Of a stretch of 31,670 nt of DNA, positions 5,964 through 31,560 are shown one piece after another. Made by a program: the position numbers and the translations under genes. This stretch comes from a virus: IMG/VR virus record IMGVR_UViG_3300025153_000017, positions 1 through 31,670 of that record; one strand, given 5' to 3'. How positions within the stretch are numbered: the stretch's first letter is position 1; every line of letters starts with the position of its first letter. The notes beneath the pieces are model-generated. The model was not told the DNA's origin, did no database searches, and saw only the letters and a list, made by a program, of their open reading frames with translations.

Positions 5964-5998
5964 GTCCTTTATAAAGATTGATTCCCGTTGTAATGTTG
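5964..5998 (+). promoter_or_regulatory. Phage-type late promoter (GTCCTTTA-N19-TAATGTTG)
   Basis: GTCCTTTA at 5964-5971 is followed after exactly 19 bp by TAATGTTG at 5991-5998, one mismatch from TAnnTTTG. The same arrangement recurs ahead of other late modules. It lies 25 bp before the protease gene at 6024 and would drive the head module. Confidence 0.65.
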
Positions 5999-6023
5999 TA
6001 TTGTACAAAAAAGTACTGCAACG

Positions 6024-7097
6024 ATGCAAAAGAAATATTATTCCGTACAAAACAAAGCTGGTGAATCCGTAGATATCATGATCTACGGCATAATTGGCGA
6101 CAGCTGGTATGAGGAGAGCGTGACGGCACGGCAATTTATTGCTGATCTGAAAGCGCTTGAAAAGGATTATTCCAGGATCAACGTCCGGATCAATTCACCA
6201 GGTGGAAGCGTATTTGATGGTCTCCCGATCTTCAACGCATTAAGATCCTCCACAGCCGAAATTCACACTTACAACGACGGACTATGTGCAAGCATGGCCG
6301 GTTTGGTTTTGTTAGCCGGGAAAACCGTTCACACAGCAGACAATGCTCTACTCATGCTTCACTCTCCGATGAGTGGATGCCAGGGAAACGCTTCCGATAT
6401 TCAGCAGGTGATCGATATGCTTGATAAAGTTCAGGATAGCCTGATTGCCTGCATTACCAGCCGTGGCACCGCAACCGCCGATGATATCAAAGCCAAATAC
6501 TTCGACTATAAAGATCATTGGTTGAATGCTGATGAAGCAAAGGCTGAAGGTTTTATCGACGTTGTTGAAAAAGGCGAAAATAAAGTTTCGAATAAGGTCA
6601 CCAACATGTCGTTAAGCGAAATCATGAATCAGTTCGACACGTTGGTAAAAGGCCGGAGCATGTTTGATAAGTTCTTTAGCCAGGCGCACGATTTTTTCAC
6701 ACCCCAAAATTCTATTGATATGGACATTAAAGTGCTTAGAAAAGCCTGTGGGCTGGCTGATGATGCCAGTGAACAGGAGGTTCTCGACTTCATTGCAAAA
6801 AAGAAGGAAGAGGATACAGATGCAGGTGCAGATGATGCCGGCACTGAAGACGATGCTGCTGCAGACGATGCCGGCACCGATGATGATGACGCAGGAGCTG
6901 ACGATGATCAGGCCGATGCAAAGGACCAAAAGATTGTCGATCTTGAAAAACAGATTGCCATTCTCAAAAAAGCACCTGGTGCTGTTGACAAAAAAGTGAC
7001 AAAAGAAACCGATAGCAATAAAACCGCTCCCGAAAGTTTTGACACTTACGCAAATGCACGTGCAACTTACGATGCAGTTCAAAAATGTGTGAAATAA
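6024..7097 (+). CDS. ClpP-like prohead protease fused to an acidic scaffold-like tail
   Basis: This 357-residue protein probably matures the prohead. Residues 1-180 form a ClpP-type serine protease: NSPGGSVFDG at 57-66, catalytic Ser90 in CASMAG, His113 in MLHSP, and a likely third residue Asp163 in YKDHWL, followed by the typical NADEAKAEGFID. Residues 264-298 are a run of Asp, Ala and Gly, and about 300-318 is a short coiled coil (KIVDLEKQIAILKK). This matches phage capsid proteases with a scaffold at the C-terminus. An internal ATG at residue 233 could give a free scaffold. The gene is followed 17 bp later by the major capsid gene. Confidence 0.85.
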   Translation: MQKKYYSVQNKAGESVDIMIYGIIGDSWYEESVTARQFIADLKALEKDYSRINVRINSPGGSVFDGLPIFNALRSSTAEIHTYNDGLCASMAGLVLLAGKTVHTADNALLMLHSPMSGCQGNASDIQQVIDMLDKVQDSLIACITSRGTATADDIKAKYFDYKDHWLNADEAKAEGFIDVVEKGENKVSNKVTNMSLSEIMNQFDTLVKGRSMFDKFFSQAHDFFTPQNSIDMDIKVLRKACGLADDASEQEVLDFIAKKKEEDTDAGADDAGTEDDAAADDAGTDDDDAGADDDQADAKDQKIVDLEKQIAILKKAPGAVDKKVTKETDSNKTAPESFDTYANARATYDAVQKCVK

Positions 7098-7114
7098 TTT
7101 AAATTTTTATTGAT

Positions 7115-8071
7115 ATGCCTACTGTATCTCATGTTGAATTAAACAAAGCCGCTCAGCTGTTTCGCAAGGAATTGCTGATCATGGCCGTGATTGGGCTCGA
7201 AGCAACGCTTCAGCACATGACCCTGCGAACAGGGATCCGCTACAAAGAGACCGTTGGTCAATTGGGTGGACCTGTAGAATTAATGCCTTATACCGGCACC
7301 CTTGCTGATGCCGATGATAATATCGCGATCACTGGACGTGATATTGAAACATTTTTAGGTCAGTCTATCAAACTGTTCGACCCGAACGCATTGCTATCAA
7401 CCCTTTATGGATCTGCAATTACGAAGGGTGATGCGTTAAAAGGAGTTCCGATCAATAAAGCTGTGTTGACGCTTATGATCTCGAAGATCAGCGAAGGATT
7501 GAATAAATCCATATTTGGTGCTGTACGTAATGCTGCCGGTAAAACAACCTCTACCCTTTTTAATGGGTTTGATACGATTGCAGCTGCCGATATTGTTGCC
7601 GGAAACATTTCGGTCGCAAAGAAAAACGAGTACGATTTTACAGCAGCGATTACAAGCTCAAATGCGCTTGATATGCTGAAGGCTTACTATCGTGCTGCGT
7701 CGGACGAACTGAAAGATGTACCTACAAAACTGATGGTACCACGTAGCATCTCCGATGCATACAACGACGATTATCAGACAACGGTTGGCGCTGCTCCTTA
7801 CAACAAGGAGTTTAATAAGACCTTTCTTGAAGGTACAAGCAACCTTTGTGAGATTGTTCCGTTGATCGGGAAAAAAGCGTCTCCGTTCCTTCAGTTGACT
7901 ACGAAGGAAAATATGTTGGTTGGTGTAAACCAGACTGGCGAAGAAGAGCAAATTGAAGTCCGCAGGGGTGACAATCCGTTCAAACTTCAGTTTATCACTA
8001 CGATGTTCTTCGGAACCCAGTACGAAACTATCAGCCCTGAAAAGCTTTTGGTTGGTAAATTATTTGTATAA
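7115..8071 (+). CDS. Major capsid protein
   Basis: The 318-residue protein follows the protease/scaffold gene directly, the usual place for an HK97-fold capsid protein. The sequence has an N-terminal helix with many hydrophobics (ELLIMAVIGLEATL), a segment resembling an extended loop (residues 40-75), a helical central domain and a strand-rich C-terminus ending GKLFV. There is no membrane segment or enzymatic motif. Length and composition are normal for a capsid subunit. The assignment rests mainly on context; an alternative would be another abundant head protein. Confidence 0.75.
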   Translation: MPTVSHVELNKAAQLFRKELLIMAVIGLEATLQHMTLRTGIRYKETVGQLGGPVELMPYTGTLADADDNIAITGRDIETFLGQSIKLFDPNALLSTLYGSAITKGDALKGVPINKAVLTLMISKISEGLNKSIFGAVRNAAGKTTSTLFNGFDTIAAADIVAGNISVAKKNEYDFTAAITSSNALDMLKAYYRAASDELKDVPTKLMVPRSISDAYNDDYQTTVGAAPYNKEFNKTFLEGTSNLCEIVPLIGKKASPFLQLTTKENMLVGVNQTGEEEQIEVRRGDNPFKLQFITTMFFGTQYETISPEKLLVGKLFV

Positions 8072-8079
8072 GCAATAAT

Positions 8080-8688: not shown

Positions 8689-8723
8689 GTCCTTCGATGG
8701 TAATTACTAAAATATCACCTTTA
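8689..8723 (+). promoter_or_regulatory. Degenerate phage-type promoter
   Basis: GTCCTTCG at 8689-8696 keeps six of eight bases of the phage motif. Exactly 19 bp later lies CACCTTTA, two mismatches from TAnnTTTG. Position (14 bp before a gene start, right after a terminator) supports it, but the sequence alone would be weak. Confidence 0.4.
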
Positions 8724-8736: not shown

Positions 8737-9660
8737 ATGGAACTTCAAGAATGGTTTGAATCAAAAGATTACGGTATCGGTCTCAGTTTACTCGGTACAC
8801 ATTGCAAAAACAGAATGCTCCTCCAAAACTTAGGACGTAAACCTAATCCGGAGAAGCTGGAGTATGAACTCCTTAAGATCTGCAAAGAGCAGGGAATCGT
8901 TATTGATGGCATCGAAGAGACTGACAAAACGAATGAAATAAAAGAGTTCAGTCCTAACCTCCCACAACCGCTGCAGGATGATTTGCAATCGCACAGTGAT
9001 CAGGTAATCGATCAGATGAATGCCAAACTGGAGTCGGATGCCGATGATATTGTATCGGATAAGATTTCAGACCTGCAATCAGATGCTGATGATATCGTAT
9101 CGGATAAACTTTCGGACATGGAGTCGGATGCCGATGAGATTGTATCTGATAAGCTGAAAGAACTGGAAGTAGCAGCCGAAGAGTTGTTGACAGGAAAACT
9201 GAAAGTAATTCGTAATGGTCATGAGGTGAATTACACTGATCTTCCTAAAGAACTAAGGGTTGCCTGGGATGCGAACCGTGATGCCTACAAAGAGATCAGG
9301 GCCACGCATGAAAAGCTGAAACTGATGGAGAATGCCAAAGATGAAGACCGGGCACCATTGGTCCAAAACATCGCCAAACTCGATGATAAGATCCGTATTA
9401 ATTGGGAAGCAATTGACGGTTGGAAACAAGGTGATGCACCAATCATTGAAAAGGCAGTGGAAATAGACCATAAACGGATCAATGCAAATCGCAAATTCAT
9501 CTCCACCAACTTGAAAACATTGCTTACAATAACCGATGAGGCTAAAGCGGTTGCAATCAAAGCAAAGATCCAGGAGCGGTATGATGAGCTGAAAAATGCC
9601 GGTGAGGCCGTTCAACCCGAAACAATTGATGAACTGACAAAAGCAGGGATTCAATGTTAA
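8737..9660 (+). CDS. Helical protein with 15-residue repeats, unknown function
   Basis: The 307-residue protein has an N-terminal globular part (1-80) and a repeat region at 85-159 with units such as SDADDIVSDKLSDME. The rest is charged and helical (160-307) with likely coiled coils. The repeat is acidic and amphipathic, suggesting a rod or oligomerising stalk. There is no signal peptide, membrane segment or catalytic motif. It sits between the head operon and the small terminase gene behind its own weak promoter, which fits a virion or assembly protein. I do not recognise the family. Confidence 0.65.
   Translation: MELQEWFESKDYGIGLSLLGTHCKNRMLLQNLGRKPNPEKLEYELLKICKEQGIVIDGIEETDKTNEIKEFSPNLPQPLQDDLQSHSDQVIDQMNAKLESDADDIVSDKISDLQSDADDIVSDKLSDMESDADEIVSDKLKELEVAAEELLTGKLKVIRNGHEVNYTDLPKELRVAWDANRDAYKEIRATHEKLKLMENAKDEDRAPLVQNIAKLDDKIRINWEAIDGWKQGDAPIIEKAVEIDHKRINANRKFISTNLKTLLTITDEAKAVAIKAKIQERYDELKNAGEAVQPETIDELTKAGIQC
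8989..9213 (+). repeat. Five 15-residue (45-bp) tandem repeats inside a gene
   Basis: Residues 85-159 fall into five units of 15: a degenerate first, three close copies at 100-114, 115-129 and 130-144 (SDADDIVSDK...), and a diverged fifth. The three close copies span 9034-9168. The DNA differs mostly at third positions, which suggests selection on the protein repeat. Confidence 0.8.
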
Positions 9661-9664
9661 ACCA

Positions 9665-9717: not shown

Positions 9718-10311
9718 ATGCCCCGTCCTACCACCCTCGAATTATGCCGGATCCATCTTTTCTCTGATACTTGCGACATCCCTGTTGCATACCAGGAGAA
9801 AATAACCCGGATCAGGACCGGCTATTCATTCTGGTACGAATTCCCAACCAAAACAGAATCCCAAATACGCGACCATCTGATGAACTGTTTTCTTTGCGCC
9901 CAGCGAACGGCTTATGAAGATATTCAGATTATTAAGATCTTACTGGGAGACATTCAGAACCCTGGCAAAGAATGGGTCCGTTACCAGGTGAATAACATGC
10001 TGGATGCTGCCTATAAAGTTGCCAAAAAGAAAAAAGACGCGAAAGGGATGGCCATGGCAGCCGGACTGAAAGGAAAATTAAACATGCTGCACCTGAAGGA
10101 TGCTGACCCCTTACCATTTGATCAGATCGTTCCACAACCATTTGAACCAACAGATGACCCGACAGAGTTGGGATTAAAGAAAGATCCTGATATCAGGGAG
10201 AAAAAACGGAAGATGCTCGAAAAATACAACGCTGATATTGAAATTATTGATGTGCCATACGAAGAAATAACTAACCAGGACAATGACAGAGAAAAAGAAG
10301 ATCTACTTTAA
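9718..10311 (+). CDS. Putative terminase small subunit
   Basis: The 197-residue protein lies directly before, and overlaps by 29 bp, the large terminase gene. Small terminase subunits recognise packaging sites and form an oligomeric ring. The N-terminal half is helical with possible DNA-binding character, then a lysine-rich helix (AYKVAKKKKDAKGMAMAAGLKG) and an acidic or basic C-terminus typical of terminase-partner tails. No clear helix-turn-helix signature can be read by eye. The call rests on position, size and the translational overlap. Confidence 0.6.
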   Translation: MPRPTTLELCRIHLFSDTCDIPVAYQEKITRIRTGYSFWYEFPTKTESQIRDHLMNCFLCAQRTAYEDIQIIKILLGDIQNPGKEWVRYQVNNMLDAAYKVAKKKKDAKGMAMAAGLKGKLNMLHLKDADPLPFDQIVPQPFEPTDDPTELGLKKDPDIREKKRKMLEKYNADIEIIDVPYEEITNQDNDREKEDLL

Positions 10312-11905
10312 CGATCCCCAGCTGGAGTTCATGTACACCGGTGCCCACACTTCAGTGATAGCTGGCGGACGTCGTTTAGGCAAATCGCACGGTTTTGCAG
10401 CTCCGTTTCTTCTTCGCAATGTTCAGGCGATGCCCAGGAGCACGGGTGGAATCGTTGGGAGCACTTATCAGCAAATATTATCCCGGACATTACCCGGAAC
10501 GCTTCAGGCACTGGAGACGTTTGGGTATAAACGCGATCTTCATTACTACATTGGCCACAAACCACCAAAAAACAGCAATTTTGCAAAGCCAATCATCGAT
10601 CCTCCAAGCTACGAAAATGCAATGATCTGGTATAACGGATCTATTGACCGTTTTATCTCTCAGGATCGGCCAGGATCATCGAATTCATTAACCCTTGACT
10701 ATTTAGCGCTTGATGAAGCAAAGTTCCTGAAGTTCACAAAGCTTAAGGAAGAAACATTCCCGGCCAATGGTGGATTTCGCGGGCACTTTGGAAATTGCCC
10801 GTTTCATCATGGTATGCTGATTATTTCGGATATGCCAACTACGAAGGCAGGCAGTTGGTTCCTGACCTATAAAGACAAGATGGACCCCGAATTGATCGAT
10901 ACAATACACTCCCTTATCTTCGAACGATGGGATGTACTTCAACGAATTAAGATCGATCCTAAACCTTACCACACGACTTATTTACGCGAATTGGATATTG
11001 CCATGGCAAAGCTCCGATCTGTTGCTGTCTATTATCGTGAATGGTCCAGTATTGAAAACCTGTTACTCCTGGGCGAACGTTACATCAAACAGATGAAGCG
11101 TGATCTTCCACCACTGGTATTTCAGACCGCTATACTGTGCAAGAAGATAGGCAATCAGCGCGATAACTTCTATGCAGCCATGCAGGAGAATGTCCATTAC
11201 TATGATGCTTTTGACAATAGCTTTCTCGATAGTCTCGACTATAACTATAAAGACACTGATGACAACTGTAAACAGGATGGTGATCTTAACCGTGATAAGC
11301 CTATCTGTATTGCATTCGACTACAATGCAAATATCAATTGGTTGGTAGCAGGGCAACGCCAGGGCGTGAAGATGATGACACTGAAGAGTTTCTATGTGAA
11401 GTATGAGCGTAAGATACGTGAGTTGGCACAGGACTTCTGTAAGTACTATCGCTATCAGAACAATAAGACTGTTATCTATTACTATGACAATACAGCATTG
11501 GGTAGTAACTATGCTGTTGATGAAGATGACTTTGCATCTGTGATCTGTAGTGAGTTCGAACGATTGGGATGGTCAATCGAGCGGGTACACATTGGTAACC
11601 CTGTACCCCATAAGGATAAGCATCGTATGATCTTCCAGGCAATGAAGGGACAGCACTTCCTTTTCCCAATGTTCAACCACCCGAACAATGAAGCATTGCT
11701 ACTGGCAATGGAGAACACGGGTGTACGCATTGGCACCAATGGATTTCAGAAAGATAAGTCAGGTGAGAAGTTGACAGAGAGTGAAGAAGATCTATTGCAA
11801 CATCGTACGGATGGTACTGATGCCTGGGACACGCTGTTCGTTGGCATGAATAAGTTTGCTATTAATGATGAGAACGATGACTCGATCGTTAGTATCTTCT
11901 CGTAA
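10283..11905 (+). CDS. Terminase large subunit (packaging ATPase-nuclease)
   Basis: This 540-residue protein would pump DNA into the prohead and cut the concatemer. Walker A is GGRRLGKS (28-35), and Walker B is YLALDEAKF with D144 and E145. The C-terminal nuclease shows spaced acidic residues: D346 in AFDYNAN, D402 in YYYDNTAL and D516 in DAWDT, the usual RNase H-like metal-binding set. Length is typical. The ATG at 10283 lies inside the end of the preceding gene. The portal gene, normally next, is displaced more than 4 kb downstream by the cargo island. Confidence 0.9.
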   Translation: MTEKKKIYFNDPQLEFMYTGAHTSVIAGGRRLGKSHGFAAPFLLRNVQAMPRSTGGIVGSTYQQILSRTLPGTLQALETFGYKRDLHYYIGHKPPKNSNFAKPIIDPPSYENAMIWYNGSIDRFISQDRPGSSNSLTLDYLALDEAKFLKFTKLKEETFPANGGFRGHFGNCPFHHGMLIISDMPTTKAGSWFLTYKDKMDPELIDTIHSLIFERWDVLQRIKIDPKPYHTTYLRELDIAMAKLRSVAVYYREWSSIENLLLLGERYIKQMKRDLPPLVFQTAILCKKIGNQRDNFYAAMQENVHYYDAFDNSFLDSLDYNYKDTDDNCKQDGDLNRDKPICIAFDYNANINWLVAGQRQGVKMMTLKSFYVKYERKIRELAQDFCKYYRYQNNKTVIYYYDNTALGSNYAVDEDDFASVICSEFERLGWSIERVHIGNPVPHKDKHRMIFQAMKGQHFLFPMFNHPNNEALLLAMENTGVRIGTNGFQKDKSGEKLTESEEDLLQHRTDGTDAWDTLFVGMNKFAINDENDDSIVSIFS

Positions 11906-12215
11906 TTACCTCCCTGTCGTCCCGATTACCTCATTACCTTTTTATCGATAATTATAATAAACTGTGGCATATAAGAGCCCTTTTGGAAGGTGGTAATTAC
12001 TTTCCACCCGCAGGGCGATGCGGGGTCATTCGTGCGATACAGTGCACAAAAAACGCCTTTGGCAAAAATAAAGCGCTAAATATGAGGGTTTTGAATTTGC
12101 GAGCTCCGCACGGTAACTAAATCGGAACCGATTACCGAAATTTTTACAGCTAAACAATTTGAAATACAGCTACCTTAACTGCTTTTAAACAGGCAAAGCA
12201 AACAAAATATTTTGT
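11906..12215. other. 310-bp non-coding region with several hairpins
   Basis: I see no credible gene here. Three copies of ATTACCT lie at 11905-11939. CCCGCA/TGCGGG pair at 12007-12012 and 12019-12024 with a six-base loop. CGGTA and ATCGG (12111-12125) pair with CCGATTACCG (12128-12137), followed by AAATTTTT, which could end the terminase transcript. The region forms the left edge of the cargo island. Confidence 0.5.
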
Positions 12216-12223
12216 TAAGTTTG
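12216..12223 (+). promoter_or_regulatory. Host-like -7 box for the lipoprotein gene
   Basis: TAAGTTTG is a perfect TAnnTTTG match, 27 bp before the ATG at 12251. No convincing -33 TTTG is present at 19-21 bp, so the call depends on the -7 box and on position. Confidence 0.45.
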
Positions 12224-12250
12224 TGGGATAAACTTAAAATCAAATTTATT

Positions 12251-12757
12251 ATGAAAAAACTATTGCTTAGTACTGCTTTACTTGTTATTTTATTACAATC
12301 ATGCACAGTTACAAAGGGTGTATATGATGCTTCGCTGAAGTCAACAGATCCTTACAAGCTCACGTTCTCAGGAACCCAGGGAGAATTCGAGAGTGCAATT
12401 AAACGATTCGTTGTTCAGAATGGTTTTTCTATTGCTGACTTTGATAAAGACGCAGGAATATTAGCAACTCAATATAAGGAACTTCCTGATGATGAAAAAT
12501 ATAATGCAAGTATGGCAATGTTAGCGGGGGTTAATGTATCAAGTCAAAAAGGGAAAATCCTATTTATCTATAAAAAGGAAAGCGAACAGGTTAACTTTGA
12601 AATGAGTTCTTACTTAGTGGTAAATGGACAATACCAAAAGAATACATTGTCTGAGGCTGAGATAGGAACTGGTGCCCAAAAATTACCGCAAGGCCATCCA
12701 TTAAATATGAAATACAAAAACATCCTACTGCAGGATGCCAGGTTTAAATTATTATAA
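12251..12757 (+). CDS. Small lipoprotein in the cargo island
   Basis: The start is ATG 12251, which gives a signal peptide; an in-frame TTG at 12212 does not. The 168-residue protein has two lysines, a hydrophobic core and lipobox LQSC with Cys18, so it should be exported and lipidated. The mature part is a single mixed alpha/beta domain with a segment like IKRFVVQNGFSIADFDKDAG, reminiscent of BamC-like or DUF4136-like lipoprotein folds, a weak impression. It has its own promoter and terminator, which is typical of a moron. Superinfection exclusion or host surface alteration is a plausible but unproven role. Confidence 0.75.
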   Translation: MKKLLLSTALLVILLQSCTVTKGVYDASLKSTDPYKLTFSGTQGEFESAIKRFVVQNGFSIADFDKDAGILATQYKELPDDEKYNASMAMLAGVNVSSQKGKILFIYKKESEQVNFEMSSYLVVNGQYQKNTLSEAEIGTGAQKLPQGHPLNMKYKNILLQDARFKLL

Positions 12758-12783
12758 ACCTGCAAACACAGGTATTCACAACA

Positions 12784-12810
12784 AAAAACCCGGTCATTCG
12801 CCGGGTTTTT
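12784..12810. terminator. Bidirectional terminator
   Basis: AAAAACCCGG (12784-12793) pairs perfectly with CCGGGTTTTT (12801-12810) around TCATTCG. A T-run follows on both strands, so it serves the lipoprotein gene on + and the ribbon-helix-helix gene on -, whose stop codon lies in the loop. Confidence 0.85.
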
Positions 12811-12958
12811 CTGTTTCTTGTTTTTCAATGTCTTCCAAATACTTAATAAGTAATGTTTCAATGAAATTTGCCATTGTCCGATTTTCTTTTTTTGCTTGAA
12901 TTTTGGCCTTTTCAAAAACTTCTTTGTCCAATTTTAAGCTTGTAGCTTCTTTTACCAT
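12794..12958 (-). CDS. Ribbon-helix-helix (Arc/CopG-like) regulator
   Basis: This is the only - strand gene recognised. It has 54 residues from ATG at 12958-12956; an upstream in-frame TTG is less likely because it would lie before the expected transcript start. The pattern matches a ribbon-helix-helix protein: a short strand (EATSLKL, 4-10), helix A (DKEVFEKAKIQAKKEN), a turn with R27, and helix B (MANFIETLLIKYL). Such proteins bind operators as dimers, often repressing neighbours or acting as antitoxins. A -7 box lies at 12983-12990, and it diverges from the KilA-N gene. No toxin partner lies on the - strand. Confidence 0.7.
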   Translation of the reverse strand: MVKEATSLKLDKEVFEKAKIQAKKENRTMANFIETLLIKYLEDIEKQETEKPGE

Positions 12959-12982
12959 ATTCTTAGGTATTACTATTTGATG

Positions 12983-12990
12983 CAAATATA
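12983..12990 (-). promoter_or_regulatory. Host-like -7 box for the ribbon-helix-helix gene
   Basis: On the - strand this reads TATATTTG, a perfect TAnnTTTG, 24 bp before the ATG at 12958. The expected -33 TTTG is not evident. Confidence 0.5.
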
Positions 12991-13030
12991 GCAAAAAACA
13001 GCCTTAAAAACACTATTTAGTATATTTCTC

Positions 13031-13051
13031 AAATATTTATAAAATATTTAT
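13031..13051. repeat. Two direct copies of AAATATTTAT between divergent genes
   Basis: Copies at 13031-13040 and 13042-13051, 11 bp apart, lie midway between the two divergent -7 boxes. Spacing of about one helical turn suits paired dimers of a ribbon-helix-helix protein. The AT-rich composition makes chance similarity possible. Confidence 0.35.
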
Positions 13052-13084
13052 CAGATATGTAGTGTATATATCACAGAATACTTT

Positions 13085-13092
13085 TATATTTG
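13085..13092 (+). promoter_or_regulatory. Host-like -7 box for the KilA-N gene
   Basis: TATATTTG is a perfect -7 box, 27 bp before ATG 13120. No phage-type GTCCTTTA lies 19 bp upstream, and -33 similarity is poor. Confidence 0.5.
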
Positions 13093-13119
13093 TGCCATTA
13101 TTAATTAATACTTCAAAGT

Positions 13120-13683
13120 ATGAATATTCAGAAATTTAAGTTTGGTGATGTTGAGATCGAGTTTGATCTCCGTCAAGGGGAAAACATGATGGTAAATGCT
13201 ACCGAAATGGCAAAGGTTTTCGAAAAAGATTTATGGTCATTTACAAAAAGCGATCACGCGAGAGCTTTTATTCAGTCATGTTTAAAACCTCCATATGGAG
13301 GTTTATTAGGTGTAAAATCGGAAGAAGATTTGATTTCTTCCAGCCAAAAATCCGGGACATGGATGCATCAAGTTTTAGCATTAAAATTTGCTGCCTGGTT
13401 AAATTCAGATTTCGAAGTTTGGGTTTATATCACCATAAAAAGTTTATTATATGAATTTGCCCGCGAAATTCAAGACTCAATCAGTGAAACTGTATCGCTG
13501 CAGCGACAAAAAGATGATATAAAGAACCAGCTTGCAAAACGCGAACCTGATTTCTTGGAATATCTCTCAATTGAACAAAAATTAATTAATGCCCGTAGCC
13601 GTCGCAGTAACGCCACAAAGAACAAATTTAGGGAGACAATGGAAGATTTATTTTCACAAAAAGGAAAGGAAGAAAAGCAATGA
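13120..13683 (+). CDS. KilA-N domain protein
   Basis: The 187-residue protein has an N-terminal KilA-N domain (about 1-105): a beta-rich start, MMVNATEMAKVF at 23-34, LWSFTKSDHARAFI, and TWMHQVLALKFAAWLNSDFEVWV near the end of the domain. KilA-N is a DNA-binding fold common in phage regulators and antirepressors. Residues 110-187 form a charged coiled coil (SLQRQKDDIKNQLAKRE), probably for oligomerisation. It has its own -7 box and overlaps the next gene by four bases. A lysogeny or antirepressor role is inferred, not shown. Confidence 0.85.
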   Translation: MNIQKFKFGDVEIEFDLRQGENMMVNATEMAKVFEKDLWSFTKSDHARAFIQSCLKPPYGGLLGVKSEEDLISSSQKSGTWMHQVLALKFAAWLNSDFEVWVYITIKSLLYEFAREIQDSISETVSLQRQKDDIKNQLAKREPDFLEYLSIEQKLINARSRRSNATKNKFRETMEDLFSQKGKEEKQ

Positions 13684-13877
13684 ATACTTGCAAAGAATGT
13701 GTTCACTATAACAATCAGGAAGGCGAACACAAAGGCACATGTATGATAATGGGACTAAAGAGATTAATTTCCAATAATAGTACCATAACTGATTGTTCCG
13801 AGGACGATCTGCAACCTTATTATGCAGAAGTAGGTGAAAACTTTGGATGTATCCACTTTGATAATACATATCGATAA
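13680..13877 (+). CDS. Cys-rich 65-aa protein, possible zinc binder
   Basis: The start overlaps the KilA-N stop (ATGA), so it is co-expressed. It contains Cys4, Cys7, Cys21, Cys39 and Cys57, beginning with CKECVHY, and could hold one zinc ion through CxxC plus two later cysteines. It is otherwise acidic, with no membrane segment. Small proteins of this look are frequent in Bacteroidota phages, but the family is not identified. A hairpin follows its stop. Confidence 0.6.
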   Translation: MNTCKECVHYNNQEGEHKGTCMIMGLKRLISNNSTITDCSEDDLQPYYAEVGENFGCIHFDNTYR

Positions 13878-13885
13878 ATAAAAAA

Positions 13886-13916
13886 CCCCCGGCAGTGCGC
13901 TAACACTAACCGGGGG
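13886..13916. terminator. GC-rich hairpin, probable terminator
   Basis: CCCCCGG (13886-13892) pairs with CCGGGGG (13910-13916), enclosing AGTG/CACT. On the + strand the following bases are CAAGTTTAAATTTT, only a weak T-run, while the - strand has a clear T-run. It ends the KilA-N/Cys-rich operon by position. Confidence 0.6.
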
Positions 13917-13961
13917 CAAGTTTAAATTTTCAGTGAATAAAAATTTTAACACCACAAAAAT

Positions 13962-14219
13962 ATGAAAAATTCAGAATTAAAATGCAACCTCGAAGTTGAA
14001 GGTATTATCCTGACCAAAGAAGCAATCAGGTATCTTAAGGCATTACAGGACAGAAACAATGAAGATATCATAATTGCGCGCGAGATTATTGCCGATGTGG
14101 TTTGCTTCCTTGCAAAAAAGATGGATTACATTGATGATGCAGAAAATGAAGAAATGTCATCGTTGATGAACGGCCTAAGCCATGTTCGTGATGAACTGAA
14201 TAATTTAAGAAAGCCATGA
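13962..14219 (+). CDS. Small helical protein A, paralogue of the next gene
   Basis: The 85-residue, all-helical, acidic protein shares the pattern (V/I)xGxxLTxEAIxxLxxxQ near its N-terminus and the ending LxxLxKP with the next gene product. They are therefore tandem duplicates that diverged strongly. It has no signal peptide or metal site. It overlaps its paralogue by four bases. Function is unknown; a heteromeric pair is possible. Confidence 0.6.
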   Translation: MKNSELKCNLEVEGIILTKEAIRYLKALQDRNNEDIIIAREIIADVVCFLAKKMDYIDDAENEEMSSLMNGLSHVRDELNNLRKP

Positions 14220-14479
14220 GAAAATCACAAAGCGAATCAAAAACAGCCACTATTATCAACGGTGTGGTTCTCACAGATGAGGCAATTGCCTTTTTAGATT
14301 CAATGCAGAACGGTGATAACGATCTCATTAAAGAGACTCGCGATGAAATAAACAATGCTATATCACAATTGATTCTATACACTGAATGGTGCACTGATAA
14401 GCAGATACCCGAAGTCCTCGATACAATTAAATACATAAACGTTTTTAACCGAAGTTTAAAAGAATTAATGAAACCTTAA
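14216..14479 (+). CDS. Small helical protein B, paralogue of the preceding gene
   Basis: The 87-residue protein starts by ATGA overlap. It has INGVVLTDEAIAFLDSMQ aligning with the same region of protein A, and both end in a short LxxLxKP tail. Predicted helical throughout. Identity is low outside the shared motif, so the duplication is old or fast-evolving. No function recognised. Confidence 0.6.
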   Translation: MRKSQSESKTATIINGVVLTDEAIAFLDSMQNGDNDLIKETRDEINNAISQLILYTEWCTDKQIPEVLDTIKYINVFNRSLKELMKP

Positions 14480-14489
14480 ACGTATAACC

Positions 14490-14708
14490 ATGAATACAAT
14501 AGACTTACAAACCGTAAAAGAATTAAAGGCCAGTGAATTGCCAGAATTGCTACAAGCGAAGGTTCGCCGAATCTGTGAACAGGCAAAGATGAACTTTGAC
14601 AATATTCATTTCATCCGTGACAATAAAGAGGAAAACTACATGGATATGTTCGATGGTGATGAATTCACCTATTGGGGATATTTTATTGACACAAACGAAA
14701 TTGATTAA
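14490..14708 (+). CDS. Hypothetical 72-aa acidic protein
   Basis: The protein is 72 residues, starts ten bases after protein B and is followed by a terminator. The N-terminus is helical (TVKELKASELPELLQAKV) and the C-terminus very acidic and aromatic (MDMFDGDEFTYWGYF). Small acidic phage proteins are sometimes DNA mimics or inhibitors, but nothing here proves that. Family unknown. Confidence 0.55.
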   Translation: MNTIDLQTVKELKASELPELLQAKVRRICEQAKMNFDNIHFIRDNKEENYMDMFDGDEFTYWGYFIDTNEID

Positions 14709-14736
14709 TACCTCTATATTTTTGTATGTTTCACGA

Positions 14737-14767
14737 AAACCCGTCTCCCCAAAAGGCGGGTTTCTTT
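14737..14767 (+). terminator. Rho-independent terminator
   Basis: AAACCCG (14737-14743) pairs with CGGGTTT (14757-14763), and the stem can extend inward by two pairs. TTTCTTTG follows. It separates the paralogue operon from the toxin-antitoxin-like pair. Confidence 0.75.
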
Positions 14768-14831
14768 GTACTTTTAATTTGCGAAACAAAAAGGTTAATC
14801 TGCACGTTTATTAATTGATATTTCTTTTACT

Positions 14832-14839
14832 TACATTTG
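14832..14839 (+). promoter_or_regulatory. Host-like -7 box for the Panacea operon
   Basis: TACATTTG is a perfect TAnnTTTG, 36 bp before ATG 14876. A TTTA at 14807-14810, 21 bp upstream, could act as a weak -33. Confidence 0.5.
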
Positions 14840-14875
14840 CAGTGAAAATACACACCGAAAAGAAACAAGACAAAC

Positions 14876-15855: not shown

Positions 15856-15858
15856 TCT

Positions 15859-15883
15859 AAAACCGCAATACTGCGGTTTTTTT
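15859..15883 (+). terminator. Rho-independent terminator
   Basis: AAAACCGCA (15859-15867) pairs perfectly with TGCGGTTTT (15872-15880) around ATAC, and the T-run continues to 15883. It closes the Panacea operon and the cargo island. Confidence 0.9.
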
Positions 15884-15930
15884 CTTTCTCCCTTTCTCCC
15901 CTTCTCTCCCTCTCACCATCTCCTTTTCAC
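15881..15930 (+). repeat. Pyrimidine-rich low-complexity tract
   Basis: About 50 bases almost purely C and T, built of variants of TTTCTCCC. It separates the terminator from the phage promoter at 15933. No coding potential is seen. It may be a host-type simple repeat. Confidence 0.6.
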
Positions 15931-15932
15931 CT

Positions 15933-15967
15933 GTCCTTTAACCTGCTGTGCGAACGGCCTATCTTGC
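15933..15967 (+). promoter_or_regulatory. Phage-type late promoter (GTCCTTTA-N19-TATCTTGC)
   Basis: GTCCTTTA at 15933-15940 is followed by 19 bp and TATCTTGC at 15960-15967. The start at 15985 lies 17 bp further on. It would restart late transcription for the portal and tail genes after the cargo island. Confidence 0.65.
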
Positions 15968-24137: not shown

Positions 24138-24172
24138 GTCCTTTAAGGTGAGTGCTCCCGGCATTACCTTGC
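24138..24172 (+). promoter_or_regulatory. Phage-type late promoter (GTCCTTTA-N19-TACCTTGC)
   Basis: GTCCTTTA at 24138-24145, 19 bp, TACCTTGC at 24165-24172. It starts five bases after the previous stop and lies 15 bp before the fibre start at 24188. The -7 box resembles the one at 15960 (TATCTTGC). Confidence 0.65.
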
Positions 24173-24187: not shown

Positions 24188-27100
24188 ATGAGTATCATTA
24201 TTCAACAGCCAGATGCACTCTCCTTCTCGGGCAACCTGAAAAAGTTCGGGGTTACCTCCGAAACGGAAGTGGTTTTCAGTTTACATAAAGGCGCTGCGCT
24301 TATCCTGAGTGAGATATATCAGCCAGATGCAGCACACTATGTATCTGTAGACCTTCGCACAATCATCGATAAAGTGCTGTCGGTTACATTACCCGGGACA
24401 AACCTGATCACCGAACAGTCTTCCGGCTTTGCCGATTTCACCGCGACAATTGACGGGACCGCCGTTGCATTTCGCGTGATCAAAGGCGGTGTGCTGGAAC
24501 TTGGATCGATGGCAGCTGATTTTGTAAATGAACATTTCCTAACCTGGCAAATGCAGGACAAACAGATACTGCAGCATCAACCCGAATGGCTGACAGTTTA
24601 CACGAATGCAGCCCGCAACCTGAAGGCAAAAGCATACTACCAGGATAACACAAATGCCTCGATGCTGCTAACCGCGCTCGATGCCGGTAAACTTTTGGCT
24701 GTTGATGTGAGCTGGGCTTCGATTAATGCATTATTCGTAAAGAAAAACCCGATTGCCTGGGAGGTATGGTTCGAAGATCTTGCCGGTACCCGGCTAAGTT
24801 ACGTGCAGAGGTATTGCCTCCGGAATTCGGATGACGAAGAGAAAATATTTATCTGGGCGAATACGATGGGAGGTATTGACTCCGTATCACTCACAGGTAG
24901 TGCCGAAGATGATAAAAAGCTCGAGCATTTAATTGCCGAAATGGGTGACGAATCCCTGCAGGAATATCAGACCGATAAGAAACGCGAAATCAAACAGTCA
25001 ACCGGATTTTTGACTGTTGATGAAAGCCGGTGGATAGAAGACTTTTTCTATTCCGGCCGCAGGTACCTGGTTGGCGAGGATGGAGCAGTACGATCGATCG
25101 TATTAGCGAGCTCGAAGATTGTAGGATCAACCGCTGATGACTTGTTTGATTACGAATTTAATTACAGATTAGCGTCTGAAAGTCAGTTACTCAATCTTGA
25201 AAGATCATTTGATTCTTTGCCAGCATTGGAGGTGCCGGTTGATTTTTTTTTAACTGAGTTACTGTCCGGGCTTCCGGTAGCTCAGTATTCTGACGGCCTT
25301 TTGATGGCTGTTCAAAGCCCTTTTGCCCAGGCGTGGCAAAAACTATCCATGGCCCAACTTTGGGGATCCGCACTTCCCGGCCTCGTTGATGGAACTACCA
25401 TCTCAGTCGTGAACGGAAAGCTCCAGGTAAATGGGGTATCCGGAGGAGTTGGCGTTTCAACATGGGGAGATCTCACGGAGAAACCATTCAACTCTTTATC
25501 AAATCTATTTTCTGTCAGTCCAGAGGGAGTATTAACGCTGTCAAATAACTATGCCGCCGCCAATCACACACACCCATACCTTTCTGATTCGGATGCACGG
25601 ATCGGCAATTGGACCACTGCATATAACTGGGGAGATCACGCCGGAAAATACCGGCCAGTTTCATGGGTTCCAGCATGGGCAGATATATCCAATAAACCTG
25701 AGTGGTTGAATAGAATGGGTTGGGATGGAACAGCTACAGTTGTTTCCTCTGATCTGCACGTCACCGGTAAACTCGTAGTCGATGGAACGATTCAGTTCTT
25801 TGGATCAGGTGCAACCGGTGGCGGAGGTGGTGGATCCACAACACTCTGGGAATTAACCGATGTTGCTGATGACATGGTTAATTCAATTTATGGTGATATC
25901 CCGATGTATAACGGGACTCATTTTGCCAGATATAATATCTCAAATTTCGCAACAGTCGGTCACGGACACACGATCGCACAGGTAACAGGATTGCAAGGTG
26001 CTCTTGATGGGAAACAAGCATCATTGGGTTATACTCCTTACTACTCAGCTAATTTTGTGGCCGGTGTAAATTATTCTGCACCACATTCACACCCTTATCT
26101 ATCTGATTCCGATGCACGGATTGCTAATTGGAGTACTGCTTTCGGATGGGGCAATCATGCAGGTTTATACCGGCTAATTGGATACGTGCCCAGCTGGGCA
26201 GAAATAACCAGTAAACCAACCTGGACGGAAAAGATGGGATGGGATGGGACCGCTGTGACAATTGCCGGTGATTTACATGTAACCGGTAAAATTATTTCTG
26301 ATGGTTCGATGCAGTTTTATGGCATCAGTTCCGGTGGTACCGGTGGCGGTGGATCTACAACGCTTTGGGGATTATCGGACGTTGCCGATGACGTGGTAAA
26401 TGCGGTTTATGGAGATCTGATCATGTATAATGGAACCCATTTTGCCAGGATCAATCAATCGATTCTGGCACCGGCTGTGCATACGCACGCGATATCGCAG
26501 GTTAATGGATTGCAGGGAGCGCTCGACACAAAAATGGCAATTCACACACATCCTTACCTATCTGATGCTGATAGTAGAATAGCCAATTGGAATGTTGCTT
26601 ATACTCATAGTCAAAGTGCCCACTACGCCGGGGCGGATGTTGGAAGCTGGGCAAAAGTAGCTACTATCCCTGTCTGGAATCAATCAACAACAGGAAATGC
26701 AGATACAGCATCAAATTCAGGGCAATGGGGAGGCATTTCTACTGGCTTTTGGCAGGGCAATTATACCAGTGGAATCTCAGGAATAATAGGAGTTCACACT
26801 AACGGAATTGCTTATACGTTCAGCGCAGGAGCAGTACAATCTTTTCTTGGTTTAGGCTCTAATGCTTATAATTCAACAGCTTATCAGCTTTTGGAAAATC
26901 AAAGATTATCAACAACTAATTCACCAACCTTTGCAGGTGGAAATTTTACAGGTTCACTATCTGCACCCAATATTCTAACTTACAGAATTTATTATGACTT
27001 AAACGCGTACACAACTGGGTATCCACCAACATACGGATTTACTCACGTTAATACTCCAACAGGTAGTTTTGTAAACTATTTAGTAATTGGTGGTGATAAT

Positions 27101-28093
27101 GGTGGATATGCGACACAAATAGCAGGAGATACTTACGGTAATGGGTTCTATTATAGAAACCTATCAGATAATGTAATTAAAAGTACTGGCTCAAACGGAT
27201 GGAATAGAGTTTATGATGTAACCAATTTGAATCGTTCAGATATTGCTATTACTGCAAGTACTGTAATAATGAATGGTTTATTTCAATCTGACAGTGATTA
27301 TTTCTTTTATAACAAAAATTATTCAGCGTTCCGAAATATTAGCGCAGGTGATATTAATGGAACTGGTTTAGTATTAAGCGGAAGAGCAATATTTAAAACT
27401 GATGTTTGGAACATAAGTAGTGATAATCAACAACGATTTTATTTTTCACCAAATGGAGTAACATATATTAAAGGAGCTGATATAATTTTTCGTAATAACT
27501 CCGATACAGCTTTATTAACTCTTACTTCTACAAATACAGCAATATTTGGTGGTAGTGTTGGAGTTTACGCAACAAACAATTCAACTTATGGACTTAATGT
27601 TACTGGAACAGCAGGTGGAGCAAGAACTATATTTTTAGCAGGTCAAGCAGGTTTTTCAAATGGTTTTAACGTTAGTTATGATGGCACTAAAATGGTTTAT
27701 AACTTTCAAAATGGTGATTCAACTTTTGGTGGTAATATTACTGCAAGTGGCAATATAATTGGCCTTGGCACAATGCAATTTTACACCGCATCCGATCGCA
27801 GGTTAAAAACCGACTTTCAGCCCATCATAAACCCTATCGAGAAAATCAAATCCCTTACCGGTTACTTTTTCAATTACACCGATCAGGCGATGCAATTAGG
27901 AGGCTACACTTCACGCCGGGATATCGGTTTGATTGCGCAGGACGTTGCCGGTATCCTGCCTGAAGCATGTGGAAAACTATGGAATACTGATTTCATGGGC
28001 TACAAAGCAGATAAGCTAATCCCGCTCCTGGTTGAAGCCATCAAACAACAACAAAACGAAATTGACGAACTTAAAAGACAGATAGCGGCATGA
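24188..28093 (+). CDS. Tail fibre with HxH repeats and S74 self-cleaving chaperone
   Basis: ATG 24188 (MSIIIQQPDALSFSG) follows the promoter; an in-frame upstream start at 24152 would overlap it. The 1301-residue protein has an N-terminal virion-attachment region (1-450). Next come two long repeats and part of a third, each opening with HxHPYLSD (H460, H633, H786), a motif common in trimeric metal-binding fibres. Then a region at about 800-1190 has different, AT-rich codon use. The C-terminal S74 chaperone begins SDRRLKTD: Ser1202 and Lys1207 have the same five-residue spacing as the catalytic pair of endosialidase. Cleavage before Ser1202 would release about 100 residues. It ends in a coiled coil. 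Confidence 0.85.
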   Translation: MSIIIQQPDALSFSGNLKKFGVTSETEVVFSLHKGAALILSEIYQPDAAHYVSVDLRTIIDKVLSVTLPGTNLITEQSSGFADFTATIDGTAVAFRVIKGGVLELGSMAADFVNEHFLTWQMQDKQILQHQPEWLTVYTNAARNLKAKAYYQDNTNASMLLTALDAGKLLAVDVSWASINALFVKKNPIAWEVWFEDLAGTRLSYVQRYCLRNSDDEEKIFIWANTMGGIDSVSLTGSAEDDKKLEHLIAEMGDESLQEYQTDKKREIKQSTGFLTVDESRWIEDFFYSGRRYLVGEDGAVRSIVLASSKIVGSTADDLFDYEFNYRLASESQLLNLERSFDSLPALEVPVDFFLTELLSGLPVAQYSDGLLMAVQSPFAQAWQKLSMAQLWGSALPGLVDGTTISVVNGKLQVNGVSGGVGVSTWGDLTEKPFNSLSNLFSVSPEGVLTLSNNYAAANHTHPYLSDSDARIGNWTTAYNWGDHAGKYRPVSWVPAWADISNKPEWLNRMGWDGTATVVSSDLHVTGKLVVDGTIQFFGSGATGGGGGGSTTLWELTDVADDMVNSIYGDIPMYNGTHFARYNISNFATVGHGHTIAQVTGLQGALDGKQASLGYTPYYSANFVAGVNYSAPHSHPYLSDSDARIANWSTAFGWGNHAGLYRLIGYVPSWAEITSKPTWTEKMGWDGTAVTIAGDLHVTGKIISDGSMQFYGISSGGTGGGGSTTLWGLSDVADDVVNAVYGDLIMYNGTHFARINQSILAPAVHTHAISQVNGLQGALDTKMAIHTHPYLSDADSRIANWNVAYTHSQSAHYAGADVGSWAKVATIPVWNQSTTGNADTASNSGQWGGISTGFWQGNYTSGISGIIGVHTNGIAYTFSAGAVQSFLGLGSNAYNSTAYQLLENQRLSTTNSPTFAGGNFTGSLSAPNILTYRIYYDLNAYTTGYPPTYGFTHVNTPTGSFVNYLVIGGDNGGYATQIAGDTYGNGFYYRNLSDNVIKSTGSNGWNRVYDVTNLNRSDIAITASTVIMNGLFQSDSDYFFYNKNYSAFRNISAGDINGTGLVLSGRAIFKTDVWNISSDNQQRFYFSPNGVTYIKGADIIFRNNSDTALLTLTSTNTAIFGGSVGVYATNNSTYGLNVTGTAGGARTIFLAGQAGFSNGFNVSYDGTKMVYNFQNGDSTFGGNITASGNIIGLGTMQFYTASDRRLKTDFQPIINPIEKIKSLTGYFFNYTDQAMQLGGYTSRRDIGLIAQDVAGILPEACGKLWNTDFMGYKADKLIPLLVEAIKQQQNEIDELKRQIAA
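25565..26610 (+). repeat. Long internal repeats of the tail fibre
   Basis: Unit 1 covers 25565-26083 (173 codons), unit 2 covers 26084-26542 (153 codons) and a partial unit 3 starts at 26543. They share HxHPYLSDxD, a WNRMGWDG-like core, LHVTGK, and a Gly-run before STTLW. Unit 2 lacks a 20-codon segment at the end of unit 1. Confidence 0.8.
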
Positions 28094-29870: not shown

Positions 29871-29905
29871 GTCCTTTACCCTGTCGCAGATAAGGATTAA
29901 GTTTG
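29871..29905 (+). promoter_or_regulatory. Phage-type late promoter (GTCCTTTA-N19-TAAGTTTG)
   Basis: GTCCTTTA at 29871-29878, exactly 19 bp, then the perfect -7 box TAAGTTTG at 29898-29905. This is the best member of the family. It drives the lysis operon, whose first ATG is at 29953. Confidence 0.7.
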
Positions 29906-30246: not shown

Positions 30247-30752
30247 TGACACCACGCGAATTTGTATCCTCCTTCCTTCCGTTTGCCAGGCAGACAGAAC
30301 TCAAAACCGGAATAACCGCCATTGCCATCCTTGCCCAGGCAGCACTTGAATCGGGCTGGGGAAAATTTGCACCCGGCAACATGTTTTTTGGTGTGAAGGA
30401 TACCGATGGCATAAATGGCAATGAACAACTATTGACCACTACCGAATACAGCCGTAGATCAGATCTTAAATTTCCGGTAATTATATCGGTAGTTCCCTGT
30501 ATCCTTAACAATCAGAAGTATTTCAAATACACAGTGAAAGATTACTTCAGAAGGTACGATACCGCGGAGAATTGTTTTACTGATCATGTTCAGTTTTTCT
30601 TTAAAAATCCACGTTACGCAACAGCATTAACCTTTCGATCAAATACAGATCGCTTTATCGAAGAAATAGCCAGGGCCGGATATGCGACAGATCCCAACTA
30701 CGCAACGCTTTTAAAATCGGTCGCAAGATCGGTGGAAAGGGCAATTGTATGA
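30246..30752 (+). CDS. Endolysin, GH73 glucosaminidase-like
   Basis: The 168-residue enzyme would cleave peptidoglycan glycan strands at lysis. AILAQAALESGWGKFAPGN at 27-45 is the GH73/FlgJ motif, with catalytic Glu35 in ALESGWG, then MFFGVK. Later motifs CFTDHVQFF and GYATDPNYATLL are also typical of this family. There is no signal peptide, so access to the wall would need the nearby holin. A compact single-domain endolysin of normal size. It sits between two membrane-protein genes. Confidence 0.85.
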   Translation: MTPREFVSSFLPFARQTELKTGITAIAILAQAALESGWGKFAPGNMFFGVKDTDGINGNEQLLTTTEYSRRSDLKFPVIISVVPCILNNQKYFKYTVKDYFRRYDTAENCFTDHVQFFFKNPRYATALTFRSNTDRFIEEIARAGYATDPNYATLLKSVARSVERAIV

Positions 30753-31012
30753 AAGTAAAGGAAATATTCATGTACACATTTGGTGCAGTAATTGTGATTT
30801 CATATTTCGCAGTTCTCATTATCCTTGCTATACAGGGTAATAATCCTGATGCGTTAAATATCATGCTTGGCGTACTGGGAAGTGCCTTCTCAATGGTTGT
30901 CGGTTACTTTTTCGGGTCCAGCATGTCGAGTGCAAAGAAGGATGACGCGATCAACACAATGGTTCAGAATTTACCGCCAACACCCCCAAATCCAATAATT
31001 CCAATTCAATGA
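30749..31012 (+). CDS. Two-span holin-like protein
   Basis: The 87-residue protein has two hydrophobic segments, about 8-28 (TFGAVIVISYFAVLIILAI) and about 38-57 (NIMLGVLGSAFSMVVGYFFG), with a short loop and a polar, proline-rich tail. It overlaps the endolysin by ATGA and the next gene likewise. Size and topology fit a class II holin. Confidence 0.65.
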   Translation: MKVKEIFMYTFGAVIVISYFAVLIILAIQGNNPDALNIMLGVLGSAFSMVVGYFFGSSMSSAKKDDAINTMVQNLPPTPPNPIIPIQ

Positions 31013-31515
31013 GAAAAATCATTAGCATCATTATTGTAACCCTGTTATTTTCCTGCGCTTCAAAAAAGGCGGTTCAACAGTCGAAAATTGAACAAAAGAC
31101 AACGCAGCAGAATTCAATCGCTGATACGAAAGCGAGTCTGGTAAATGTCAATAAAACAGTTATTGACGAAAGCAAAAACAACGATGAAACGGTGACGAAG
31201 ACAACGGTTTACGATACGGAGAAACCCAATGTGGGTGATACAGGTAAACCTCCGGTTAAATCCGAAACCGTTACCACGACCACAAAAGCAGAAAAGAAGA
31301 ATGTTAAAACGGTCGTAGATTCAGCCAAAAAAGAGGAATCGGCTCACGTTGATAATTCAAAATTGGATAATCAGGGCAAAGAGCAAACCAAAACAGCCGT
31401 AAAAACGCAACCAACGGTTAAATATTACTTTTATATTATTGGTCTGTTGGTTCTTATTGTATTGGGATATCTGGGATACAGGAATTTTGGAAGGATAAAG
31501 GCATTGTTTAACTAA
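31009..31515 (+). CDS. Probable unimolecular spanin (lipoprotein with C-terminal membrane span)
   Basis: The 168-residue protein starts with a lipoprotein signal (TLLFSC, Cys16), has a low-complexity Thr/Lys/Glu/Asp linker at about 20-136, and ends with a single membrane span at about 139-157 (FYIIGLLVLIVLGYLGY) and a short basic tail. A lipid anchor at one end and an inner-membrane span at the other is the architecture of unimolecular spanins such as T1 gp11, which join and fuse the two membranes in the last step of lysis. Its position after the endolysin and holin-like genes agrees. The start overlaps the previous gene by four bases. Confidence 0.75.
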   Translation: MRKIISIIIVTLLFSCASKKAVQQSKIEQKTTQQNSIADTKASLVNVNKTVIDESKNNDETVTKTTVYDTEKPNVGDTGKPPVKSETVTTTTKAEKKNVKTVVDSAKKEESAHVDNSKLDNQGKEQTKTAVKTQPTVKYYFYIIGLLVLIVLGYLGYRNFGRIKALFN

Positions 31516-31525
31516 GGTAAAATTT

Positions 31526-31560
31526 GTCCTTTAGTAGCACACCAGGAATAGTGAGATTTG
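31526..31560 (+). promoter_or_regulatory. Phage-type late promoter (GTCCTTTA-N19-GAGATTTG)
   Basis: GTCCTTTA at 31526-31533 with a 19-bp gap to GAGATTTG at 31553-31560, one mismatch from TAnnTTTG. It lies 34 bp before the ATG at 31595. Confidence 0.6.

Follow-up and report, generated by a model that had tools for sequence, protein, structure and literature searches.

Middle promoters of phage T4 depend on MotA and AsiA, a phage protein reading a single asymmetric box in the −35 place while the host −10 element is kept. Mu C and P2 Ogr are small late activators of temperate phages, and their sites are dyads lying further upstream. Promoters of the Bacteroidota sigma factor sigma-ABfr combine a −33 TTTG with a −7 TAnnTTTG; the host −33 element is weak and was not found in F. 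johnsoniae, according to PMC7366714. The present analysis concerns an element consisting of an 8-mer, GTCCTTTA (here called the GTC box), a spacer of exactly 19 bp (N19) and a −7-like box, which an initial annotation had noticed in the virus record IMGVR_UViG_3300025153_000017; this complete IMG/VR record of 31,670 bases is referred to below as the window. We consider it probable, from comparison with related genomes, that GTCCTTTA-N19-TAnnTTTG serves as late promoter in a large group of Bacteroidota phages and prophages, and that its GTC box is bound by a phage protein.

Five exact copies of GTCCTTTA lie on the + strand of the window (5964, 15933, 24138, 29871 and 31526) and none on the − strand, the + strand holding 92% of the coding sequence by a simple gene call. 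Exactly 19 bp past each copy stands a −7 box scoring 4–6 of 6 against TAnnTTTG, and the counts, boxes and intergenic locations given in the initial annotation were all reproduced. In 1000 dinucleotide shuffles, GTCCTTTA occurred on the + strand 0.29 times on average and three times at most, five never being reached, and its combination with a −7 box scoring 4/6 or better at N19 came to 0.015 on average. The copy number is weak evidence by itself, since 238 8-mers reach at least 5 copies on the + strand. The unusual part is that 5/5 copies fall within the 7% intergenic share of the window and share a fixed spacing; the copy at 24138 is genic only under a GTG start at 24152, an in-frame ATG lying at 24188, 50 nt past the G of the box. 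The sixth, degenerate copy at 8689 is real as well and keeps the spacing. The predicted promoters are listed here with the score of each −7 box.

5964 to 5998, + strand: predicted late promoter P1, GTCCTTTA-N19-TAATGTTG (5/6), 60 nt 5′ of the head protease ATG at 6024
8689 to 8723, + strand: predicted late promoter P2, degenerate, GTCCTTCG-N19-CACCTTTA (4/6), 48 nt 5′ of the ATG at 8737
15933 to 15967, + strand: predicted late promoter P3, GTCCTTTA-N19-TATCTTGC (4/6), 52 nt 5′ of the gene at 15985, which is followed by the portal gene
24138 to 24172, + strand: predicted late promoter P4, GTCCTTTA-N19-TACCTTGC (4/6), 50 nt 5′ of the ATG at 24188, which opens the large gene 24188–28093
29871 to 29905, + strand: predicted late promoter P5, GTCCTTTA-N19-TAAGTTTG (6/6), 5′ of a module with a glucosaminidase (endolysin-type) gene
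31526 to 31560, + strand: predicted late promoter P6, GTCCTTTA-N19-GAGATTTG (5/6), 69 nt 5′ of the ATG at 31595

The position and spacing of P1 are kept in relatives, P3 has an equivalent location in several of them, and P2, which lies directly behind a terminator, recurs in the relative G010 as GTCCTTCG-N19-TAATTTTA. Just upstream of P5 there is a hairpin followed by a T-run, seen by eye only and absent from the terminator scanner's list. The −7 boxes of P3 and P4 (15960–15967 and 24165–24172) read TAnnTTGC, matching the SM5 motif (TAnnTTGY) rather than TAnnTTTG; SM5 has been described for F. psychrophilum in PMC9723704. Matches to sigma-70 promoters (TTGACA/TATAAT) in the window were no better than chance, and this promoter class was set aside.

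Relatives were collected by terminase, protease and portal similarity; the main set of 38 non-redundant records (1.16 Mb) also includes 12 that were picked for carrying the motif. Spacings from 12 to 28 were compared, a −7 box being counted at 5/6 or better. Within this set, coding-strand GTCCTTT was accompanied by a −7 box at N19 in 76 of 118 copies, with 0–2 at every other spacing, and antisense GTCCTTT in 3 of 79; for coding-strand GTCTTTT the figure was 17 of 77. No N19 peak was obtained in the 38 records for GTATTTT, GTACTTT, ATCCTTT, CTCCTTT, TTCCTTT, GACCTTT, GTGCTTT or GTCATTT, although individual records do use such variants (GTACTTT in G033, GTATTTT in G017). The same picture emerged from a motif-independent subset of 24 records gathered by protein similarity alone, from which the window and its close relative G003 were excluded: 29 of 55 copies of GTCCTTT had the box at N19, other spacings gave 0–2, and antisense copies 0/37. 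A GTCCTTT-N19 site was present in 21 of these 24 records; among the other three, G006 has six GTCTTTT-N19 sites, G012 has one, and G017 has GTRTTTTT-N19. Upstream of the head protease gene, 21/23 stitched records show a GTnYT core followed at N19 by a box scoring 4/6 or better, the cores being mostly GTCCTTT or GTCTTTT, with GTACTTT, GTGTTTT, GTCCTGG and GTCCTAG also represented; the two exceptions are G035 and G042, the latter showing GTCCTTGG-N19-GATCTTGC (3/6). A blind scan of viral contigs at spacings 17–21, which is a sample and no census, gave 47 hits at N19 against 32, 8, 22 and 16 at 17, 18, 20 and 21 among the at least 120 stretches listed, and 36 against 20, 3, 13 and 11 among the first 80 loci.

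For the remaining tallies, a strict site is defined as a GTCYTTT followed at N19 by a box scoring 5/6 or better, and 48 records were scanned (the 38 together with L251 and L255–L263, L252–L254 being excluded); 45 of them contain 116 strict sites. On this comparison of sequences the family consensus is (T)GTCYTTTn-N19-TAnnTTTG. The core of the 8-mer first described is real, but its eighth position, given as A, is not fixed (A50 T33 G21 C12 among the 116 strict sites) and its fourth may be T; a T directly precedes the box in 71/116. A TTTG at about −33 is not kept as such, the register holding TTTA, TTTT, TTTC or TTTG, with G in 21/116. Motif and spacing are thus strongly kept in related phages, as the initial annotation had proposed to check, and its term 'phage-specific' is too narrow if this one phage is meant, since the element spans many Bacteroidota phages. 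Its carriers are Bacteroidota phages from gut, mouth and environment.

A protein that might read the GTC box was sought by protein clustering of 26 stitched records, which yielded one family of ~150–230 aa outside the virion-module genes. The most widely common families (protease, terminase, portal, DUF6712 and other virion-module genes) were not taken as the activator. The initial annotation had expected the activator gene outside the window; the best candidate lies inside it, in the following setting.

4962 to 5489, + strand: candidate late activator gene, 175 aa, from a previously undescribed family of ~170 aa, predicted C-terminal helix-turn-helix (residues ~93–174), just 5′ of P1
5581 to 5958, + strand: small gene between the candidate activator and P1, the next frame 3′ of the activator
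4920 to 4927, + strand: −7-like box TATCTTCG, 5′ of the candidate activator gene, read by eye

Upstream of TATCTTCG, the position of a GTC box holds the 8-mer TTTTATTG and hence, by eye, no GTC box. The family comprises three sequence groups (12, 6 and 4 records, no record being common to two). In profile comparisons the smaller groups align with the largest along most of their length (probability 95.8/97.6, E 7e-9/5e-12), and each other weakly (37.3, E 4e-4). The window protein gave no match in PHROGs, Pfam or NCBIfam, and 21 family members gave none in Pfam (E up to 0.01) or PHROGs (E up to 0.001). Look-ups in PDB sequences and PDB folds returned nothing convincing, and tblastn of the phage collection gave no match for the window protein or the L169 protein. 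AlphaFold models of two distant members (predicted local distance difference test, pLDDT, 89.9 with predicted template modelling score, pTM, 0.81; pLDDT 93.3 with pTM 0.84) both combine an alpha/beta part at the N terminus with three helices at the C terminus. Residues 102–162 of the first model weakly resemble the helix-turn-helix domains of TnpE (2rn7; Z 5.6, root-mean-square deviation (rmsd) 3.5, 57 residues aligned) and Mu transposase Ibeta (2ezk; Z 4.8, rmsd 3.1, 56 aligned). Arg154, in the last helix, is invariant in 31/31 members. The best match in a viral fold library, A0A8E5EBJ1 of Polaribacter phage Leef_1 (E 9e-4, template modelling score 0.58/0.63), suggests that members may also exist among Flavobacteriia phages. 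In the phage collection, members occur in Bacteroides phage BT-TP2, 18 Porphyromonas gingivalis phage records and 5 fecal phage records, and in genomes they occur in Bacteroides, Prevotella, Hoylesella and others.

Protein family and GTC box predict each other. Among the 25 non-redundant records collected by routes other than the protein, 22 contain the family; the remaining 23 of the 48 were retrieved with it and so are positive by construction. The first strict site follows the activator gene at 409–567 bp in 33 of these 45 positive records, nearly always behind one small gene, and overall 100 strict sites are downstream of the activator gene and 12 upstream. The next frame 3′ of the activator measures 112–164 aa in 43/45 records and 66 and 315 aa in the other two; this small gene, as widely placed as the activator itself, looks virion-like by eye, and a partner role is conceivable. 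Scanning viral contigs by protein returned 31 loci, and 21/21 non-redundant ones carry GTCCTTT on the strand of the protein, followed at N19 by a box scoring 4/6 or better. At loci from named genomes, strict sites were within reach in 7/10. BT-TP2 and P. gingivalis phage019b each carry four strict N19 sites on the coding strand, 39–56 nt 5′ of annotated genes, and 0 on the opposite strand.

The same relation was observed in bacterial chromosomes, using 41 (family) and 149 (order) genomes around Hoylesella marshii (G049). A protein profile search placed the family in 5/41 and 12/149 genomes, at 17 loci in total. Leaving aside the G049 locus and G080:C16, the 15 prophage loci located by protein profile alone had downstream strict N19 sites in 14 cases, the exception having only 1.3 kb of downstream sequence; their spacing tally was 32 at N19, 0–1 at other spacings and 0 on the antisense strand. 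In the reverse direction, a cluster meaning at least two strict sites on one strand and no more than 30 kb apart, the two genome sets yielded three clusters, namely the known prophage G049 and the new ones in G080 and G100. All three (3/3) have the protein gene on the contig and strand of the cluster, 463 bp 5′ of the first site in G100.

The phage protein could instead be an alternative sigma factor, or a substitute for sigma region 4, rather than an activator of the full host holoenzyme. This is unlikely: the box does occupy the place of sigma region 4, with rigid spacing, and the predicted DNA-binding part is C-terminal, but 0/21 members match Pfam or PHROGs at the limits given above. Sequence profiles, to which this statement is confined, revealed no sigma-70 region 2 or 4 domain by Pfam and PHROGs in the 21 members or at the NCBIfam cut-off in four proteins. 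We judge the protein too small to hold sigma regions 2 and 4 together. The −7 box, moreover, has the sequence read by the host sigma factor (PMC7366714).

Another explanation accepts the promoters as real and supposes a host protein, such as an alternative or extracytoplasmic function sigma factor or an activator, as the reader of the GTC box, the gene 4962–5489 being otherwise employed. Bacteroidota are rich in alternative sigma factors (PMC7366714), and the two TAnnTTGC boxes of the window resemble the F. psychrophilum SM5 motif (TAnnTTGY; PMC9723704). Against this, the 41 host genomes contain 18 strict matches, of which 7 lie in two prophages, compared with 15 for the reversed control; outside prophages host genes thus show no excess (11 versus 15 in the 41 genomes). 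In the 149 genomes the sole clusters are the prophages G049 and G100, and the motif tracks the phage protein family over many hosts. Around three single scattered matches, the 8–12 kb read contained no profile match to the family, protease, terminase, portal or DUF6712. We regard reading by a host protein as decidedly unlikely, and a host sigma factor or host regulon was dropped as the principal explanation on these genome scans.

The placement of the sites resembles that of promoters. Strict sites lie 30–100 nt 5′ of an ATG open reading frame of at least 60 aa in 112/116 cases, compared with 35/335 for antisense copies of the core and 51/122 for coding-strand copies lacking a box, some of which are probably sites with weaker boxes. 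Intragenic copies, which the initial annotation had named as evidence against itself, are few: 4/116 strict sites lie inside long frames, as against 6087/9600 random positions. The offset from the box to the nearest ATG is bimodal, with 30 sites at 38–41 (19 at exactly 39), one at 42–46, 67 at 47–62 and none at 30–37. In F. psychrophilum TAnnTTTG spans −12 to −5 (PMC9723704), so offset 39 would correspond to +1; the GTC box would accordingly cover −39 to −32, with its TTT in register with the −33 TTTG. The start codons therefore fit transcription starts just past the −7 boxes, as first suggested, and about a quarter of the promoters would set the start codon at or next to the transcript start, as in leaderless mRNAs. 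For comparison, leaders under 10 nt make up 3.7% in B. thetaiotaomicron (PMC7366714) and leaderless mRNAs 5.5% in F. psychrophilum (PMC9723704).

That the element is a non-promoter signal (for example within a terminator, or for attenuation, packaging or recombination) is very improbable: a T-run of at least 5 does lie within 25 nt upstream of 21/116 strict sites and 6/116 spacers contain a hairpin (stem ≥6; 1.1 expected after shuffling), but the majority of copies have no preceding T-run, an in-register −7 box is far commoner for coding-strand GTCCTTT than other spacings are, 112/116 strict sites lie 5′ of an open reading frame, and start codons gather at the predicted +1.

In several relatives the spacer consists of a terminator-like hairpin followed by TATTTTTG (G023 at 23836 and 25050, G021 at 18950, L263 at 7562 on the − strand), and G045 and G046 contain comparable prophage-type matches with a hairpin spacer. 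At such sites the −7 box would also serve as the T-run, the promoter being fused to a terminator. The second late promoter of several relatives has a palindrome around TTTGCAATTGCAAA or TTTGTGCGCACAAA in the spacer/−7 region at varying offsets (L230 13157, L236 14175, L242 14166, L243 12580; L244 12674, L249 15062), which is perhaps a separate operator.

From these patterns we infer promoter activity, DNA binding, activation, sigma contact and temporal order as follows. Host RNA polymerase with its primary sigma factor would read the −7 box, as at ordinary host promoters, while the GTC box at −39 to −32 would replace the weak or missing −33 contact. A small phage protein, encoded in the window by gene 4962–5489 and itself expressed from a promoter usually devoid of a GTC box, would bind the box. 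Binding would be via the predicted C-terminal helix-turn-helix and probably as a monomer, because the site is asymmetric and no second half-site was seen. Keeping a fixed distance to the −7 box, the activator would hold sigma region 4 or replace it, and the late operons (head, portal, tail, lysis) would thereby start together. The comparative evidence agrees with the original proposal of a late-promoter family standing in place of the −33 TTTG and probably served by a phage activator. More tentatively, and somewhat short of an even chance, many tailed phages and prophages of Bacteroidota may share this one late switch, in which a small protein from a new family, acting as a monomer, takes the role of sigma region 4 at its own box, reprogramming the host polymerase, and many late mRNAs start within 2 nt of the start codon.

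Several observations weigh against a late promoter read by the phage protein. No family member was found in 3/25 records: G009 (3 sites in the 20.0 kb read out of 24.0 kb), G030 (a single site) and G035, which has no strict coding-strand site and a weak family match (E 0.0087). Conversely, G017 has the activator gene and no GTCYTTT site, carrying GTRTTTTT-N19-TAnnTTTG 5′ of the protease gene and two other genes, and the other three named-genome loci, L252–L254, carry GTCCTTCA or GTCCTTCC instead of strict sites, with a box of 5/6 at N19, 493–563 bp past the protein match. Eleven of the 12 upstream sites fall in four records, which may be circularly permuted. The twelfth is a strict site in L242, ~100 nt 5′ of its activator gene, and G012 carries GTCTTTCA-N19-TAAATTTG 5′ of a frame at the activator place, so the activator gene is not always box-free. 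Structurally, Foldseek against the PDB gave no match at E ≤0.001 for either model, the best Z scores of 5.6 and 3.6 may reflect just a common arrangement, and across much of the clade to which the window belongs the last helix is not strongly basic, many members having a net charge of 0 to +4. A small residue of host sites is possible, given 11 matches outside prophages versus 5 at N18 spacing. Lastly, conserved gene order could link protein and promoter without direct contact.

The remaining genes of the window named in the argument are as follows.

6024 to 7097, + strand: head maturation protease (Clp family), the first gene past P1 (PF00574, E 1.2e-32)
10283 to 11905, + strand: terminase large subunit, no Pfam match of its own, assigned by gene order and annotated relatives
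16206 to 17603, + strand: portal protein, no Pfam match of its own, assigned by gene order and annotated relatives

Between terminase and portal lies a cargo island (12000–15860) with a KilA-N protein and a SocA/Panacea-type protein (14876–15415), and on the opposite strand a ribbon-helix-helix-like gene (12794–12994) under the Pfam cut-off. All 6/6 TAnnTTTG matches of the cargo island (11901–15960) are without a GTC box, in agreement with the earlier statement that cargo promoters lack the element. Tandem repeats of 33 bp (6819–6888) and 45 bp (9037–9153) lie in the protease gene and in the gene starting at 8737, respectively.

In the searchable literature, outside of which lie preprints and most subscription journals, no description of late-gene switching in Bacteroidota phages was found, and GTCCTTTA together with phage gave no literature match. 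What the analysis adds is how broad the family is, a relaxed consensus, an activator candidate within the window, predictions that held in both directions, and evidence from start codons for the transcription start. With a fixed promoter signature and an activator candidate, one can predict late operons, true start codons and prophages from sequence. Bacteroidota are major gut and oral bacteria, whose prophage induction becomes testable by a simple reporter, and the common signal points to a shared, so far unstudied early-to-late switch. If true, it would also offer a phage-controlled promoter/activator pair for Bacteroides laboratory genetics.

Among known systems, the sigma-ABfr promoters of Bacteroidota share the −7 box, and the TTT of the GTC box would be in register with their −33 TTTG, but the phage sites have a strong seven-base box at one fixed distance instead. 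Short leaders are common at the host promoters (PMC7366714), and here leaders of 8–23 nt are implied in 67/116; a start codon within 2 nt of the predicted +1, found in 30/116, is far commoner than the 3.7% or 5.5% of the hosts. Proteins from two groups of described phages belong to the same family as the candidate activator. Gp8 of BT-TP2 (PQ571279, XPO95538.1), whose phage has four strict sites, is annotated as a 'transcriptional regulator', its function being given by annotation only. P. gingivalis prophage proteins such as XAW31948.1, also accompanied by four strict sites, are annotated as hypothetical; the main text of the P. gingivalis prophage study PMC10367356 does not contain 'promoter', 'transcription' or 'late gene'.

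The scheme would resemble that of Mu C and P2 Ogr in that a single phage protein, produced ahead of the late phase, turns on several late operons; the 21 members examined have no Pfam or PHROGs family match. The T4 MotA/AsiA system, whose sigma appropriation the proposed mechanism would parallel, differs in host phylum and sigma factor, and the genes served here would be late, not middle. Pfam includes MotA models, and none was matched by the 21 members at E up to 0.01; no AsiA-like partner turned up, no search having been aimed at one. The likeness to MotA would lie in the architecture of the site itself, an asymmetric box over the −35 region (−39 to −32 as placed here), separated by N19 from the −7 box of the host.

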